Shown piece after piece: positions 4,092 through 12,402 of a stretch of DNA of 12,402 bases. The notes beneath the pieces were generated by a model that was not told where the DNA came from, ran no database searches, and saw nothing but the letters and a program-made list of their open reading frames with translations. Each line of letters opens with the position of its first letter. Position 1 is the stretch's first letter. A program made the translations under genes and the position numbers. Origin of the DNA: Candidatus Firestoneibacteriota bacterium (GTDB taxonomy: Bacteria > Oederibacteriota > JAAXVQ01); contig JAAXVQ010000024.1 in NCBI GenBank assembly GCA_013335425.1, positions 1 through 12,402 on the forward strand, given 5' to 3'.

Positions 4092-4095
<4 letters not shown>
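3682..4095 (-). CDS. rnhA: Ribonuclease HI family protein
   Basis: Cytoplasmic nuclease that cuts the RNA strand of RNA-DNA hybrids with two divalent metals. The four acidic residues are visible: Asp11 in CDGGSRGNPG, Glu51 in NNWAEYQG, Asp75 in HLDSELVV and Asp125 in NAAADRLVNEAL. At 137 residues it is shorter than E. coli RNase HI (155). It appears to lack the basic protrusion helix and belongs with the compact RNase HI-like group also seen in archaea and many bacteria, so the symbol is a family-level call. The start is GTG at 4095, which overlaps the kdsA stop as GTGA, implying translational coupling; there is no strong ribosome site of its own. Its position after kdsA looks like operon convenience rather than a shared pathway. 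Confidence 0.92.
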
Positions 4096-6664
<2,569 letters not shown>

Positions 6665-6745: not shown

Positions 6746-6775
6746 AGAAAAAAATAAACACCGGGCATGGCCCGG
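6746..6775 (-). terminator. Rho-independent terminator after the PorV-TPR gene
   Basis: Reading the minus strand, CCGGGC (6775-6770) and GCCCGG (6766-6761) form a 6-bp G+C stem with a 3-base loop. It is followed by TGTTTATTTTTTTCTT, a T-rich tract with seven Ts in a row (6754-6748). It lies 55 bases after the stop of the gene ending at 6830 and should close the unit that includes the two surface genes. A second stem, ATTGGGG/CCCCAAT at 6782-6802, sits just before it. Confidence 0.75.
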
Positions 6776-6829: not shown

Positions 6830-8743
6830 TTATTGCACGGCTTTAAGCTTTTTCTGCGTCTTGTCGATGTTGTCGGCCGCGCCGGGGTAGTCGGGCACCA
6901 ACGTCAGCGTGTCACGCCAATTGGCAATGGCCTGTTTCCACAAGCCTTGGGTGTACTGCTCGATACCCTTTAAGTAGTATTCTTTGGCACGCTGTTTAAA
7001 CACCCCATCATTGGCCTGAATCAGCTTAAGCACCTCGACGTATTGAGGGGAAATGGCCAAAATCCGCCGCCAATTGCCGGCAGCACGCACCAGATCCCCG
7101 GCCTGCAAGTACCGGCTGCCGGCCGCAATCAAGTCCGCAACTTTTTCCTCCAACAGCTTCCCGGCCAGCTGCATATACTGCCGGGCTTCCCTGTGCTTGG
7201 GTTCGATTTTCAGAAGTTTACCCCACGCCTCCATGGCGCCACGATAATCGCCCTGTTCAAACTTTTTCAAACCCGCGAGGTAATATTCTTTTATGCGCGG
7301 GTCTTTAAACCCTTGCCCGCCTTTGACCATCTCCACCCGAATTTTATCCAACATCTCTTTGGCTTCGGCTTGGTTGGGGTCCAGTTCCAGCACGTTTTGA
7401 TAGGCCAACAGGGCATCGGCCCAATCCCGCAAGGTAAACGCCTTGCGCCCTTCGGCCAAGTTTTTGGCAATGGTCTTCGCATGGTAAGCTTCCCGGGTTT
7501 CACCCAACGCCTTGGCCGCCCGGGTGTTTTTCTCATCCAAAAGCAGAACCCGTTGATATTCCTCCAAGGCGTCCGACAGCTGCCCGTTTTTCCGGAACTG
7601 ATCCGCTTTCACAAAATGCAGGTTGATCTCCTGTTCCAGTTCCTGGCGTTTCAAAGCCGTCCGGGCCCCTCCCAATCCGGCAAGCGCGGTTGCGTCTTCC
7701 GGAGCAAACGTCAACACCTTTTGGAACGCATCCACGGCCTGGGTGTATTGTCCGGCTTTTAATGCCGTCCGCCCCGTGGCACGCGCTTCGGCAATCAATT
7801 TTTCTCTCTCTGAAGCCAAGGCGCGGCCGCCGCCGAAAAAGTAGGTAAAACTGGCGCGGTGCCCGAACCCCAAATCCCCCTGCGGAATCAACGCATAGTC
7901 CAACTGGTATCCCTGTAAATTAAAACCCAGCCCGGCCCGCAGGCCCGAGAGGTTATCCAGGCCTTCATTTTCCGGACGCCAAAGATAACCGGCGCGTAAG
8001 GCAAAGAGATTTTGATACCAATACTCCACGCCGACGCCGTAGCGGAACCAGCCCAGCCAGGGACGGCTGACATCCGCGCTCACGATCAACTGGTCTTGAA
8101 AAAATCGCCCGGCCAAACCGGCGCGCAACGTCAGCGGCGTCGGAAAACCGGCTACAGGCGTTCCCAAATTTTGCAGGGCCGCGCCCGCCGAGTACCAGGC
8201 GCCCGCCGGGCGATAGAGCGCCCCGGCGTCCAGGCACACGCTGCTGTAGGTCACGTCGTCGAGTTGTTCGCGCGCGTAATTCAGCAGCACGCCCGCCAAG
8301 AAACCCTGTCCCAGATTGCGCCCATAGGCCAACCCCACCAGTGCGCTATAGGGATTAAATCCGTTGCCCGTGACCAAACCGTCTTCGTCCCGCCGCTCCT
8401 GAATGTCCGAATTGAGATAAGACACCTGCACAGCCGGGCACCCCCAGGCCTGCGGCACCGCTGCCGATAAATATTCCTGGCGCAGGTTGACGATCCACTG
8501 ATTATGCTGAAAAAGGATCTGCGTGTCGTTGACCTGGCCGAGCCCCGCCGGATTCCAAGACAGGGTGTTGACATCGTCGGCCAAACCCGCAAAAGCTTCG
8601 CCCAAGGCATAGGCCCGGGGGCCCGCCCCCAATTCCAGAAACGCCATGGCCCGGCGGGAAGCGAGCCGATCCGCGCCCCAAACCGACAAGGCTCCGCCGA
8701 GCAAACATAATGTCAAAAGACCGCTTAATATTTTATTGATCAT
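6830..8743 (-). CDS. PorV/PorQ-like outer-membrane barrel fused to C-terminal TPR repeats
   Basis: A 637-residue exported protein. Residues 1-24 are a signal peptide (short basic start, LLTLCLLGGALSVWGA core and cleavage). Residues about 30-305 look like a PorV/PorQ-family (FadL-like) beta-barrel: the start LELGAGPRAYALGEAFAGLADD followed by LSWNPAGL is the family signature, then alternating strands rich in Gly, Tyr and Leu end in FTYFFGGG. Residues about 313-635 hold about six TPR-like helical pairs near 320-350, 377-407, 430-460, 487-517, 539-569 and 588-619 (for example AGQYTQAVDAFQKVLTFAPED), which would face the periplasm. PorV is the shuttle of the type IX secretion system; here function is inferred only. 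The ATG at 8743 overlaps the upstream stop as ATGA with GGTGA just before it, so the pair is translationally coupled. The open frame above the ATG runs inside the upstream gene and is rejected as coding. Confidence 0.85.
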   Translation of the reverse strand: MINKILSGLLTLCLLGGALSVWGADRLASRRAMAFLELGAGPRAYALGEAFAGLADDVNTLSWNPAGLGQVNDTQILFQHNQWIVNLRQEYLSAAVPQAWGCPAVQVSYLNSDIQERRDEDGLVTGNGFNPYSALVGLAYGRNLGQGFLAGVLLNYAREQLDDVTYSSVCLDAGALYRPAGAWYSAGAALQNLGTPVAGFPTPLTLRAGLAGRFFQDQLIVSADVSRPWLGWFRYGVGVEYWYQNLFALRAGYLWRPENEGLDNLSGLRAGLGFNLQGYQLDYALIPQGDLGFGHRASFTYFFGGGRALASEREKLIAEARATGRTALKAGQYTQAVDAFQKVLTFAPEDATALAGLGGARTALKRQELEQEINLHFVKADQFRKNGQLSDALEEYQRVLLLDEKNTRAAKALGETREAYHAKTIAKNLAEGRKAFTLRDWADALLAYQNVLELDPNQAEAKEMLDKIRVEMVKGGQGFKDPRIKEYYLAGLKKFEQGDYRGAMEAWGKLLKIEPKHREARQYMQLAGKLLEEKVADLIAAGSRYLQAGDLVRAAGNWRRILAISPQYVEVLKLIQANDGVFKQRAKEYYLKGIEQYTQGLWKQAIANWRDTLTLVPDYPGAADNIDKTQKKLKAVQ

Positions 8744-11700
8744 TTGATCACCGTCAGTTTGCCTACCGGAAATCCGTGCATACCACCATCCTGGCTGCGT
8801 ACTGTAATACGGTGGAGATACACCCCTGGCGCCACCCCGTCCACGTTCCAGGTTTGTTTGTGGTACGCGCCTCCTCTGCCTTCCCTTTGCTGATCCCAAA
8901 CCAATTCACCCGCCTGGTTATAAACCCGGATGCGCACCGTGGCGTCCTGGTCCAGCCAAGCAAGGAACGTGATGGTCCGCCCGCGGCAAGGGTTGGGATA
9001 ACTCACGGCTTCATCGTGCCCAATCAAAGATTCCAGGACAAAATCCGCCCGCTCCCCGGGATAATGCCCGCTTTGTATGCCGCTTTTCATACCCGTGGCC
9101 GAAGCTTTGATTTCATAAAGGCCCGGCGTCAAAGGCGAGAGCACATAGGCGCCTTGACTGTCCGTGGAAACTTGCATTTGCAGGTTTCCCGAAGCATTCC
9201 AGGCTTGAATCACAGCTTGGCTCAACGGCTGGTGGTCCGCACTTTTAACCACCCCGGCGATGGAGGTCTGCGGGACCAGCACCAAATTCACGTTGTCCGT
9301 GGTATTGCCGATTCTGGCGGACGCGGTCGTGCCGCCCGTGGTATAGCCCGGGGTCTGGGCCGAAACCGTGAAGGTTCCGCTGTGCAATCCCGGCAAAGCA
9401 TAAAATCCGTCGGGGTGGGTGAGCGCGACGCGCGCCGGGAGCGGATTATCCGCCTGAAAAGCCTGGATCATGCACAACCCCAGCGGACGGCCCAACGGAT
9501 CGGTCACGCGCCCGGAGAACGAGCCGCCGGTTTGCATGATGAACTCCTGCTGCAAGGTTTGCGGCGCTGCGGGCACGCTGACCGCGGGCAAAGGCTCCAT
9601 GGCCAGGTTGACGCCGAGGATCGAGGTAAAATAAGCTTGGGCATGATACGTTCCCGGGGAAAGCATAAGCGCATAGTTGCCCCATTGATCCGCCAAGGCC
9701 TCCCCCGTAACGGCCGAATCCGCTTCGGACCAAAACTTAATGATGCCCGTGAAGGTCCGGTTGCCGGAGGTGTCGTGCATGGCGCCGTAGACTTTCGCTC
9801 CCGGCAATAAGCTGAAGTTATAGCGATAGTTCCCCTGCTCCACCACGGTCATATTGCCGCTCTGACGGCAGGCCATGCCGTAGTCAACCGCCGGAGGAAT
9901 GGCCTGCAATGTGTAGTTCCCAGGAGCGACGCCCTGCAGGCGGTAATACCCGGTGTCGTCCGTAAAACTGATTTGATCGAAAAAGGAGAGCGAGGCGAGC
10001 ACGTCAAATTTATTCTTGGCCACGACCTTGACCCCAGCCAGGGAATTGCCCGTCGCATCATAGACATAACCGTCGATCGTCGCGCCGGCCGACAATTGGC
10101 GGTTATACCTATCCACGGCGCCGGCCGTCACATGCAGGTAATCGGTGAGGGTTTGGGTATGCCCGGCGACATTTTCCACCACAGCCAGGTAGTCGCCTTC
10201 CGGGGCATAGGAAAGTATAAAATTCCCGTCAGCGGCCAAATCCGCGCTTATGGCAATGTCCGAGTTTAATAATATGACACTTCCGGCACTGAGGCTGTTG
10301 CCCGCCGCGGTGGTCACCAGCCCTTGCCTGCCGCCGGCCGGGTGCAGGAAAAAGTTCTGCTGTCGGCCGGCATTTTCCGTGACCGTAAGCCCTTTGACCA
10401 CCGCGGCCGCGTTAAGCGCAGTTAAGCTGGCCTTGGGGGTTATGGCGAGCGTATAATTTTGAAAAGGCGAAAGTCCGTCAACGGAATATTTTCCGGCAGC
10501 ATCGGTCCGGGTTTGCACCCATTTCTCAAAGGGAAATTTCATGTCCACATAGGCTTGCACCAAAGCCCCGGAGAGCGGCTGTTGTTGGGCATCATAAACC
10601 GTACCTTCCAGCCACCCGCCGGGTTGGAGGATAAAATTGCGGGTCGTAACGGTCACCGAACCCTGCAGGGAAATGCCGCTGAATTCGGCACTCTGCAGAT
10701 TCAAGCCTTGCGGCGGCGCAACCCGGATGGAGTACAATCCCTGAGTGAGACCGTTAAAGTTGTAGGTCCCTGAAGGCCCTGTCGTGGATTGCTGTTGGTT
10801 GTTGCTGTTGCCCGTGGCCGGGAAAACAGTCACAACCGCCGCGTTCACTGGTCGGTCGAGATAATCACGGATAAATCCATTGAGACTTCCGCCCGCCCAG
10901 AGTAAAAAATTAATAGCCCCCGTATTTTGATTATCCAGCACCGCCAGATTATAGCGGACAGCATTGGAGTATCCGGGTGGTCCGAGGGCGATTAAATGAT
11001 TGAGGCCGGGAAGAACGTGCGGGAGCAGGTATTGCCCGTCGGCCGCCGTATAGGTCACGCTTTGCGGCATATAATCCGCGGCATTGGCATAAACCGAAAG
11101 CAGCCCGATGTTGGCGGCCGGAAGCGTGGTCCCGGCATAAGTCACCCGCCCCGATATCGAACCGCCGACCGCGAGCGCAAAATCCACCCCGGGCATATCC
11201 GTTTTATCCGTCAGCACCAGGGCGCGGGTCGGCAGGGGCGCATATTGGGGCGTGGTAAGGGTCAGGCGGGAAGTTCCCGGAGGCTGACGTAACTCGTAAT
11301 AGCCATCCGCAGCCGTGGAGGTGACAGCCGGAAAAACATTGGCCGGATCATTGCCTGAGGCCGTAAGGCCGATCCCGGCCAGCGGCAGTCCGCCCACCGC
11401 GGTACGCACATGCCCGGAAATTAGGGAACCCACATAAATCGAAGCGTTTTTGGTGTTGGTTTGGCCGGCTGCAATTTCCGGAGGATTGAGCTCCATGACA
11501 GTAGCGTACCCGGTTTTGGTCAGGACTACATAATGCGCGGCATTGGCATCCACCACGGGCAGGGTCAGCACGTAAGCGCCCTGGGCATCGGTGTAGGCGG
11601 CATAGGGAAGGTACGAATTGGGGAAAGCCACGACAAACACGCCTGCGCAGGGCGTGTTGTGCGAAGCGTCGGCAATGGTGCCCAGCAAAACACCGGACAT

Positions 11701-11781
11701 GGCCGCTTCACTCGTCGAAATGCAACCCAGTCCCAGGGCGCAACCCAATATCAGCACCGGCATCCATGTCCGCGAAGGCAT
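8740..11781 (-). CDS. Secreted multi-domain protein: about ten carboxypeptidase-regulatory-like modules plus FlgD/T9SS-like C-terminal domain
   Basis: A 1013-residue exported protein with no enzyme motif that I can see. Residues 1 to about 26 are a signal peptide (VLILGCALGLGC core, likely cut near SEA-A; the lipobox-like GLGC is poor because position -3 is Gly). About ten modules of 80-95 residues follow, starting near 29, 119, 207, 297, 388, 483, 567, 661, 752 and 839. Each begins like GG-x-(I/L/F)-x-G-x-V, has a PLxGAxV-type strand, then a DxxGxY turn and a PGxY/LxV strand. This is the carboxypeptidase D regulatory-like / transthyretin-like fold. Residues about 925-1013 start YPNPCRG and end GVYLHRI...KLTVIK, like FlgD Ig-like and T9SS type A sorting domains. 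The ATG at 11781 has AAAGGA 8 bases upstream. It follows kdsB by 74 bases with no visible promoter or terminator. A role as a surface stalk or adhesin is inference. Confidence 0.85.
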   Translation of the reverse strand: MPSRTWMPVLILGCALGLGCISTSEAAMSGVLLGTIADASHNTPCAGVFVVAFPNSYLPYAAYTDAQGAYVLTLPVVDANAAHYVVLTKTGYATVMELNPPEIAAGQTNTKNASIYVGSLISGHVRTAVGGLPLAGIGLTASGNDPANVFPAVTSTAADGYYELRQPPGTSRLTLTTPQYAPLPTRALVLTDKTDMPGVDFALAVGGSISGRVTYAGTTLPAANIGLLSVYANAADYMPQSVTYTAADGQYLLPHVLPGLNHLIALGPPGYSNAVRYNLAVLDNQNTGAINFLLWAGGSLNGFIRDYLDRPVNAAVVTVFPATGNSNNQQQSTTGPSGTYNFNGLTQGLYSIRVAPPQGLNLQSAEFSGISLQGSVTVTTRNFILQPGGWLEGTVYDAQQQPLSGALVQAYVDMKFPFEKWVQTRTDAAGKYSVDGLSPFQNYTLAITPKASLTALNAAAVVKGLTVTENAGRQQNFFLHPAGGRQGLVTTAAGNSLSAGSVILLNSDIAISADLAADGNFILSYAPEGDYLAVVENVAGHTQTLTDYLHVTAGAVDRYNRQLSAGATIDGYVYDATGNSLAGVKVVAKNKFDVLASLSFFDQISFTDDTGYYRLQGVAPGNYTLQAIPPAVDYGMACRQSGNMTVVEQGNYRYNFSLLPGAKVYGAMHDTSGNRTFTGIIKFWSEADSAVTGEALADQWGNYALMLSPGTYHAQAYFTSILGVNLAMEPLPAVSVPAAPQTLQQEFIMQTGGSFSGRVTDPLGRPLGLCMIQAFQADNPLPARVALTHPDGFYALPGLHSGTFTVSAQTPGYTTGGTTASARIGNTTDNVNLVLVPQTSIAGVVKSADHQPLSQAVIQAWNASGNLQMQVSTDSQGAYVLSPLTPGLYEIKASATGMKSGIQSGHYPGERADFVLESLIGHDEAVSYPNPCRGRTITFLAWLDQDATVRIRVYNQAGELVWDQQREGRGGAYHKQTWNVDGVAPGVYLHRITVRSQDGGMHGFPVGKLTVIK

Positions 11782-11855: not shown

Positions 11856-12402
11856 TCAACAGCGGAGCGTGTTCGCCATTTTTCGGGCACGCGTCAGATC
11901 TGCCTGAGTATCGACGGAAAGCGTGGGTTTATCCACTCGGACCACGCGGATTTTCACCCCGTTTTCCAAGGCCCGTAATTGCTCCAACTTTTCGGTTTTT
12001 TCCAGGGGGGTCTGGCGCCAAGCTGCGTAACGCAGCAAAAAGTCGCGCCGATAGGCATACAGCCCAAGATGCAGTCTGCAAAGGCCGGACGGCAGCTTGC
12101 CGTTGTCCCGGGCATGGGGAATGGGGGCGCGGGAAAAATACAGGGCATTGCCCTGCAGATCGCAAACCACTTTCACGGCATTGGGATTGGAGTAATCCTC
12201 CGTGGGCAAGGGCGCCGCGAGGGTGGACATCAACAAAGTTTTATCCTTCACCAGCGGCGCACACAAACGGTCGATAGTGGCGGGCAGGATAAAAGGTTCG
12301 TCACCCTGGATGTTGACCACGATGTCGCAGTCGATTTTTTTAGCCACCACGGCCAAACGGTCCGTGCCCGAGGCGCAGGCTACCGGGGTCATGACCGCTT
12401 CC
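11856..12402 (-). CDS. kdsB: KdsB, C-terminal part: CMP-Kdo synthetase (5' end outside the window)
   Basis: Cytoplasmic 3-deoxy-manno-octulosonate cytidylyltransferase, which makes CMP-Kdo from Kdo and CTP for Kdo transfer to lipid A. The last 181 codons are present; the N-terminal nucleotide-binding start lies beyond 12402. The reading frame is open through the edge (EAVMTPVACASGTDR), so the Met encoded at 12392 is internal and not the start. Family motifs: SGTDRLA, IVVNIQGDEPFI, YFSRAPIPHARD, LHLGLYAYRRDFLLRY, PLEKTEKLEQLRALENG and SVDTQADLTRAR. The stretch LEKTEKLEQLRALE also occurs in related CMP-sugar cytidylyltransferases, but the QGDEP and HLGLYAYR combination indicates KdsB. It is followed after 74 bases by the ten-module secreted gene instead of the frequent partner pyrG, which lies 5.2 kb away. 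Confidence 0.95.
   Translation of the reverse strand, partial: EAVMTPVACASGTDRLAVVAKKIDCDIVVNIQGDEPFILPATIDRLCAPLVKDKTLLMSTLAAPLPTEDYSNPNAVKVVCDLQGNALYFSRAPIPHARDNGKLPSGLCRLHLGLYAYRRDFLLRYAAWRQTPLEKTEKLEQLRALENGVKIRVVRVDKPTLSVDTQADLTRARKMANTLRC

Follow-up and report, generated by a model that had tools for sequence, protein, structure and literature searches.

A sorting-domain protein and a PorV-family barrel as a candidate cargo-carrier pair of a type IX-like secretion system in FCPU426/Goldiibacteriota

The window analyzed here, a stretch of 12,402 nucleotides (nt), is one contig of the genome G000 (525 contigs, 84% complete) and carries two adjacent genes, P0002 and P0001. We read P0002 as a cargo of a type IX-like secretion system and P0001 as the carrier dedicated to it, with a probability of about 0.6. 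The labels on the protein relatives of the window and on the named loci are candidate division FCPU426 and Candidatus Goldiibacteriota, both of which are entered as phyla at NCBI. The type IX secretion system (T9SS) is said to be confined to Bacteroidota (PMC12618676) or to the Fibrobacterota-Chlorobiota-Bacteroidota (FCB) group (PMC11205867). Type A cargos are reported to share one PorV, and type B cargos to have dedicated carriers (PMC12635249, PMC12618676). By contrast, the sequence data suggest a T9SS variant that gives every type A-like cargo a PorV-family carrier of its own, with a private carrier and anchor per cargo in place of one shared carrier. The simplest reading of the pairing, the SprA matches and the literature on analogous systems would be that dedicated carriers are here combined with type A signals and barrels of the PorV family.

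The C-terminus of P0002 scores as a T9SS cargo C-terminal sorting domain (CTD) in two curated collections: 38.7 bits with TIGR04183 in NCBIfam (cut-off 23) and, over residues 928-996, 35.7 bits with PF18962 (Por_Secre_tail) in Pfam (cut-off 27). This bears out the type A sorting domain that an earlier note, made from the bare sequence, had proposed. The same note had described a ten-module protein; a repeat stalk with a C-terminal domain is indeed present, but the count is nine CarboxypepD_reg modules and a CTD, not ten modules of one kind. The type B models, TIGR04131 and TIGR03519, list no match for P0002 or P0001 at E ≤ 10, and PHROGs contains none for P0002. Judged by eye, the N-termini of both proteins resemble Sec signal peptides.

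P0001 matches the PorV/PorQ family model NF033709 with 136.8 bits (cut-off 90), and PorV is its best match both by profile and by fold. A first structure prediction, of the whole protein with 14 sequences, gave a poor barrel (predicted template modelling score 0.42); a second, with 98 sequences, reached a predicted local distance difference test score of 95. Pfam lists its best tetratricopeptide repeat (TPR) stretches at about residues 320-530 and no OmpA domain, the structure model is helical up to residue 636, and the single match in PHROGs, a weak one, falls in the TPR part. The earlier description as a PorV/PorQ-like barrel with TPRs thus stands as to family and repeats, while P0001 stays under the cut-offs for PorV and PorQ proper.

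The two genes form a translationally coupled pair, as first noted from their ATGA junction (Table 1). Both the cargo-then-barrel order and the 4-nt overlap are kept in three further loci, L156, L157 and L158, and across genomes such pairing is far above chance. The surroundings vary: kdsB lies upstream of the pair in L157 and L158, and on the downstream side L156 and L157 have pyrG and kdsA, which L158 does not (gene names assigned by eye). L156 is probably the same record as G001:C59, the two contigs being equal in length (28416). P0001 has 14 clear homologues including the window's own, 8 of which (own included) lie on contigs also matched for P0002 homologues; the shared contigs are inferred from sizes that recur in both match lists (12402, 28416, 5532, 1134623, 19878, 14087, 1467107 and 11444). 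Four of the other six are on contigs of about 5 kb or shorter and two on longer ones. By these matches, the pair is conserved together, a point that the earlier note had proposed to check. In the same-genus relative L156 (223-8004), three CTD-like proteins are encoded one after another, the third immediately 5' of a single barrel, and small genes are inserted between the barrel and pyrG (both by eye).

Table 1. Features of the P0002/P0001 region, in window coordinates
Feature	Position	Strand	Basis or remark
Cargo gene P0002, 1013 aa: Sec-type signal peptide (by eye), CarboxypepD_reg stalk, type A CTD	8740..11781	-	Pfam, NCBIfam
Stalk of nine CarboxypepD_reg (prealbumin-like) stretches, about residues 30-915	9037..11694	-	PF13620, 250.6 bits; limits approximate
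T9SS type A sorting domain (CTD), residues 928-1013	8743..9000	-	YPNP start, Gly of VYNQAGEL, Lys of C-terminal KLTVIK
ATGA overlap of cargo stop (TGA) and barrel start (ATG)	8740..8743	-	junction ...AAATGATC...; recurs in L156, L157, L158
PorV/PorQ-family barrel gene with TPR domain, P0001, 637 aa	6830..8743	-	Pfam, NCBIfam
PorV-fold outer-membrane barrel, residues 25-310	7814..8671	-	profile match and predicted fold
C-terminal TPR domain, residues 311-637, expected periplasmic	6833..7813	-	Pfam, predicted structure
Terminator-like stem-loop 3' of the barrel gene	6761..6775	-	matches a consensus only; the region has 10 sites of this kind, with 9.2 expected from shuffles

P0002/P0001 is one case of a phylum-wide pattern. 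PorV-family proteins score over the cut-off in all 45 genomes, with at least 6 to 42 matches per genome among those listed, weak and split matches included. By curated models alone, G000 has a same-strand CTD 84-260 nt upstream of 11 of its 34 barrel loci, and close upstream pairs number 20/54 in G001, 11/29 in G012 and 4/9 in G013. Since 0.26, 0.15 and 0.03 such pairs are expected by chance in the latter three genomes, we rejected chance adjacency. For a pair count over the same four genomes, we used a CTD profile built only from nine G000 CTDs without an adjacent barrel match. The gene just 5' of the barrel carries a CTD for 56 of 100 PorV-family barrels (G001 26/44, G000 13/22, G012 12/26, G013 5/8), against 19 of 221 other open reading frames (ORFs) in the fetched loci. 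At least some of these 19 are themselves cargo genes, from loci that had been included on other grounds (for example L156-L158, which hold the window's orthologues). The 100 barrels derive from 126 matches (G000 lists at E ≤ 10; the other three at E ≤ 0.001 for barrels and E ≤ 1 for CTDs), of which 18 under 40 bits, one without DNA and seven within 350 nt of a contig edge were dropped; split barrel matches were merged by hand before counting, and 14 barrels without an ORF of at least 80 aa in reach were scored as misses.

The pattern repeats in the 40 genomes outside this count, where a CTD gene precedes 30 of 67 barrels; of the other ORFs in these stretches only 2 of 111 carry a CTD, and among shuffled peptides 0 of 285 do. 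These 30 pairs are spread over 28 of the 40 genomes and 10 of 14 families. The sample consisted of the first two usable barrels per genome, 70 in all and leaning towards high scores, less three at contig edges. In 25 of 55 pairs with a readable start, the barrel gene begins before the cargo gene has ended, in 20 cases by exactly 4 nt; in 22 further pairs it begins 0-60 nt after the cargo stop. The start was taken as the earliest in-frame ATG, which favors overlaps. Elsewhere, eight consecutive TIGR04183 matches form a cluster of CTD proteins on the plus strand of G013:C21 (4342-39094), a contig with no listed PorV-family match, and a weak CTD match (E 0.067) at about G012:C1 223298-223534 falls inside an open frame of 24,245 aa, a giant protein.

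Upon profile comparison, the paired CTDs are of type A and closer to PorU, a translocon-entry CTD and PorZ than to FlgD: a profile of 24 of them ranks PorU first (E 4.7e-9), followed by the 8glj sorting domain (7.7e-6), PorZ (4.9e-5) and FlgD (0.003). The glycine of the GxY segment is conserved in 54/54 CTDs, that of the IYNxxGE segment in 47/54 and the lysine of the last strand in 40/54. CTD motifs essential in Porphyromonas gingivalis have been reported (PMC11285876), and we take the IYNxxGE glycine and the last-strand lysine to be their counterparts. When curated models were run on the 86 C-termini encoded upstream of barrels (E ≤ 0.1), TIGR04183 matched 55 and PF18962 46, and the type B model TIGR04131 matched 4 (best E 0.011).

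The paired barrels often bear TPR, FlgD-Ig or OmpA tails. Among 36 with a C-terminal extension, an OmpA-family domain is fused in 7 and FlgD_ig matches 10. Some carry short immunoglobulin (Ig)-like tails after the barrel (L101, L114, L116, L127, L024 and L027, named by eye), which could conceivably act as intramolecular mimics of the CTD. One 1024-aa frame on the minus strand (G004:C49:227461-229572) contains two PorV-family matches and appears to be a double-barrel fusion.

The earlier note had left the remaining T9SS parts to a genome search, and of these the translocon SprA is clearly represented. With an alignment made from the phylum's own SprA sequences, 45 of 45 genomes match at E ≤ 1e-5 and 42 of 45 with at least 140 bits; the remaining matches are shorter fragments in G016 and G000 and a weak match only in G030. 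Where apparently complete, these relatives occupy open frames of 1767-2334 aa. The curated model TIGR04189 matches in 22 of 26 genomes and exceeds its cut-off in 3; its weak hits at model positions of about 120-340 look fn3-like (fn3 in Pfam). With that family model, G000 has no match, and we rejected an absence of SprA from this genome because a search with the phylum-specific alignment recovered part of the gene, an N-terminal fragment that lies at the edge of a contig (E 1e-23) and has the same neighboring gene as in G001 (matched by eye). By sequence match, SprA is thus near-universal in the phylum. The combination named beforehand as speaking against the proposal, namely a C-terminus that scores only as FlgD-Ig, SprA and PorKLMN both absent and a pair not conserved, is not what we found: the CTD is type A, SprA is present and the pair is conserved. 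The undescribed secretion or display module that the note had envisaged survives as a conserved cargo-barrel pair, one of many; because its translocon would be a SprA relative, it reads as a T9SS variant and not as a stand-alone module.

No PorU-grade sortase appears among the 26 genomes, a search that a divergent sortase could have escaped. Peptidase_C25 occurs in 3 of the 26, and with the PorU model, whose cut-off is 420, the three proteins reach 60, 84 and 40. We rejected them as PorU because they lie far under this cut-off and two end in a CTD themselves, for which reason these two look like cargo. The CTD-bearing C25 (gingipain/PorU clan) peptidases, which occur in two relatives (L149:8697-11345 and L150:6818-11341), end in type A domains.

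From these elements we infer a possible transport route. Sec would export the cargo, which would fold in the periplasm, and its CTD would then enter the SprA pore. There it would be caught by the loops of its own PorV-family barrel, made beside the cargo through translational coupling, and cargo and carrier would be pulled out together through the lateral gate of SprA. The search having turned up no PorU sortase, the CTD probably remains uncleaved, and by analogy with known pairs the carrier probably stays on as the surface anchor of its cargo. The TPR tail, replaced in sister barrels by OmpA-type or FlgD-Ig domains, would be periplasmic; its probable role is to tether the carrier to the translocon or to the cell wall. 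In this scheme each CTD would recognize its cognate barrel; the measurements that bear on this are linkage and partial co-divergence.

Parts of this route have counterparts in Bacteroidota. In Flavobacterium johnsoniae, the CTD is reported to bind the PorV loops inside SprA, with energy needed at carrier and substrate release (PMC10994853). SprB/SprF and other type B/PorP-SprF pairs of this species likewise place a cargo gene before that of a dedicated, cognate carrier barrel, commonly encoded directly downstream, and the cargo stays bound to it (PMC12618676, PMC12635249), as P0002 would to P0001. They differ in that P0002 has a type A CTD and P0001 belongs to the PorV family, with TIGR04131 and TIGR03519 unlisted for either at E ≤ 10, and in that GldL, GldM and GldN stay under their cut-offs in 26 genomes of this phylum, searched without a positive control. 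In P. gingivalis, PorZ retains its CTD and seems to be anchored by PorQ, and a review raises the speculation that CTDs are shielded from cleavage by cognate PorV-like barrels (PMC5562754, PMC10202324). In PorZ/PorQ and PorU/PorV, a PorV-family barrel keeps a CTD protein at the surface (PMC5562754, PMC10202324), as P0001 would do for P0002, and P0001 scores higher with the PorQ than with the PorV model, though under both equivalog cut-offs; they are, however, fixed parts of one attachment complex, whereas here the cargos are many and different. The general PorV (6h3i, 8gl6) is one shared carrier in Bacteroidota; here, PorV-family barrels are many, often one per cargo, and often tailed. Finally, PorE-PorP-PG1035 combines a carrier barrel with a periplasmic partner to hold a CTD protein at the surface (PMC9143113) and provides a cell-wall link (PMC12618676); here, by contrast, the OmpA-family domain is fused to the barrel itself in the 7 tailed barrels mentioned above, and P0001 has TPRs instead.

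Several observations, in this paragraph and the next ones, weigh against P0002 and P0001 being a cargo and its dedicated carrier. P0001 stays under the equivalog cut-offs of PorV (NF033710, 51 versus 250 bits) and PorQ (NF033711, 75.5 versus 220), as it does for PorV2 (41.9 versus 325). Residues 257-319 of F. johnsoniae PorV have no counterpart in the profile alignment, so the carrier loops may differ. Motor proteins over cut-off are found in none of the 26 genomes for GldL, GldM or GldN, in searches run without a known-motor genome as positive control and not covering PorK: at E ≤ 1, GldL matches in 12 of 26 (best 7.5e-4), GldM in 1 and GldN in 0. Pairing is not a universal rule either: 44 of the 100 barrels lack a preceding CTD gene, and many CTD matches stand without a barrel beside them. 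The order is reversed, with a CTD in the next gene 3' of the barrel, in 3 of 43 testable cases, one of these three genes being the cargo of the next barrel; the rest of the 100 comprised 6 unclosed frames, 19 barrels without a next ORF and 32 whose next ORF ran off the locus end. Within 500 nt 3' of barrels or on the opposite strand, G001, G012 and G013 show no CTD, a scan that misses long downstream cargo genes because the CTD sits at the gene's far end; at 0-4000 nt downstream there are 4, 5 and 0 CTD matches versus 1.9, 1.1 and 0.2 expected. Given the reverse cases found by the direct downstream test, cargo-first order is a strong rule but not an absolute one. L014 (G000:C462:4014-4835, plus strand), where the downstream and not the upstream gene ends in a CTD, is one of the three.

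Co-divergence bears on the best-surviving alternative, in which P0002 is an ordinary type A cargo of one or a few shared PorV proteins and P0001, expressed along with it, has a different function, for instance that of a PorQ-kind attachment barrel. Mantel tests within genomes (2 of 56 pairs with short barrels left out) are supportive of CTD-barrel co-divergence in G001 and G000 and fail in G012 (r -0.05) and G013 (r -0.08); with close barrels removed, p is 0.10 in G000 (not significant) and 0.026 in G001 (weak). Because the CTD is short, the test is a weak one. Nearest-neighbor matching of CTD and barrel exceeds chance in G000 and G001. A shared carrier would fit the missing co-divergence in G012 and the single general PorV reported for type A cargos of Bacteroidota (PMC12618676, PMC12635249), and high-scoring unpaired barrels could serve in that role (G012:C16, 204.9 bits; G001:C164, 185.4 bits). 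It does not, however, call for dozens of pairs with the cargo gene first (a 4-nt overlap occurs in 20 of 55), and it sits poorly with the above-chance matching. We consider it unlikely.

An uptake pair, with P0001 as a FadL-like channel fed by the surface protein P0002 and the CTD merely an export tag, seems more improbable still. PorV is the best match by profile and fold, the CTD, the only domain surveyed in those cargos, recurs upstream of 56 of 100 barrels, and TPR, FlgD-Ig and OmpA tails are common in our survey, which covered paired barrels. That the P0002 C-terminus is a FlgD-type Ig domain of a periplasmic protein next to an incidental barrel is very improbable: PF13860 (FlgD_ig) does match 36 of the 86 upstream C-termini, a further point against our reading, and NCBIfam FlgD models match up to 27, but TIGR04183 matches more of them, P0002 itself exceeds the curated cut-off, PorU, 8glj and PorZ rank ahead of FlgD in the PDB profile comparison, and SprA is near-universal in the phylum.

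The cargo and dedicated-carrier reading can be extended, tentatively and at less than even odds, to the phylum as a whole. An uncultured phylum outside Bacteroidota would then run a type A T9SS with one carrier per cargo and a permanent hold, lacking PorU and the known GldKLMN motor and drawing on another power source; dozens of private PorV-family barrels, many with tails reaching the cell wall, would each serve one surface protein. Among the best-ranked literature matches, mostly open-access, we found no link between T9SS and FCPU426/Goldiibacteriota and no type A cargo with a private PorV-family carrier. NCBIfam already includes PorV2 and PorU2, which puts further partnered PorV paralogues on record, as models at least. 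If the dedicated-carrier reading is true, dedicated pairing would be a property of the carrier principle and not of type B signals, the phylum would supply dozens of natural CTD-carrier pairs for deriving recognition rules, and it would raise the question of how SprA export is energized where no known motor is detected.

The matched genes of the window all lie on the minus strand: kdsB (truncated by the window end), P0002, P0001, pyrG, kdsA, an RNase HI-like gene, a TIGR02266 gene, htpX and rsmB. The best matches of the RNase HI-like, TIGR02266 and htpX genes are under curated cut-offs; we take the TIGR02266 protein to be PilZ-type. P0002/P0001 lies among genes for 3-deoxy-D-manno-octulosonate (KDO), kdsB upstream (11859-12401) and kdsA downstream (4095-5093). 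These neighbors are of possible interest given that PorZ is reported to deliver anionic lipopolysaccharide in P. gingivalis (PMC8545088).
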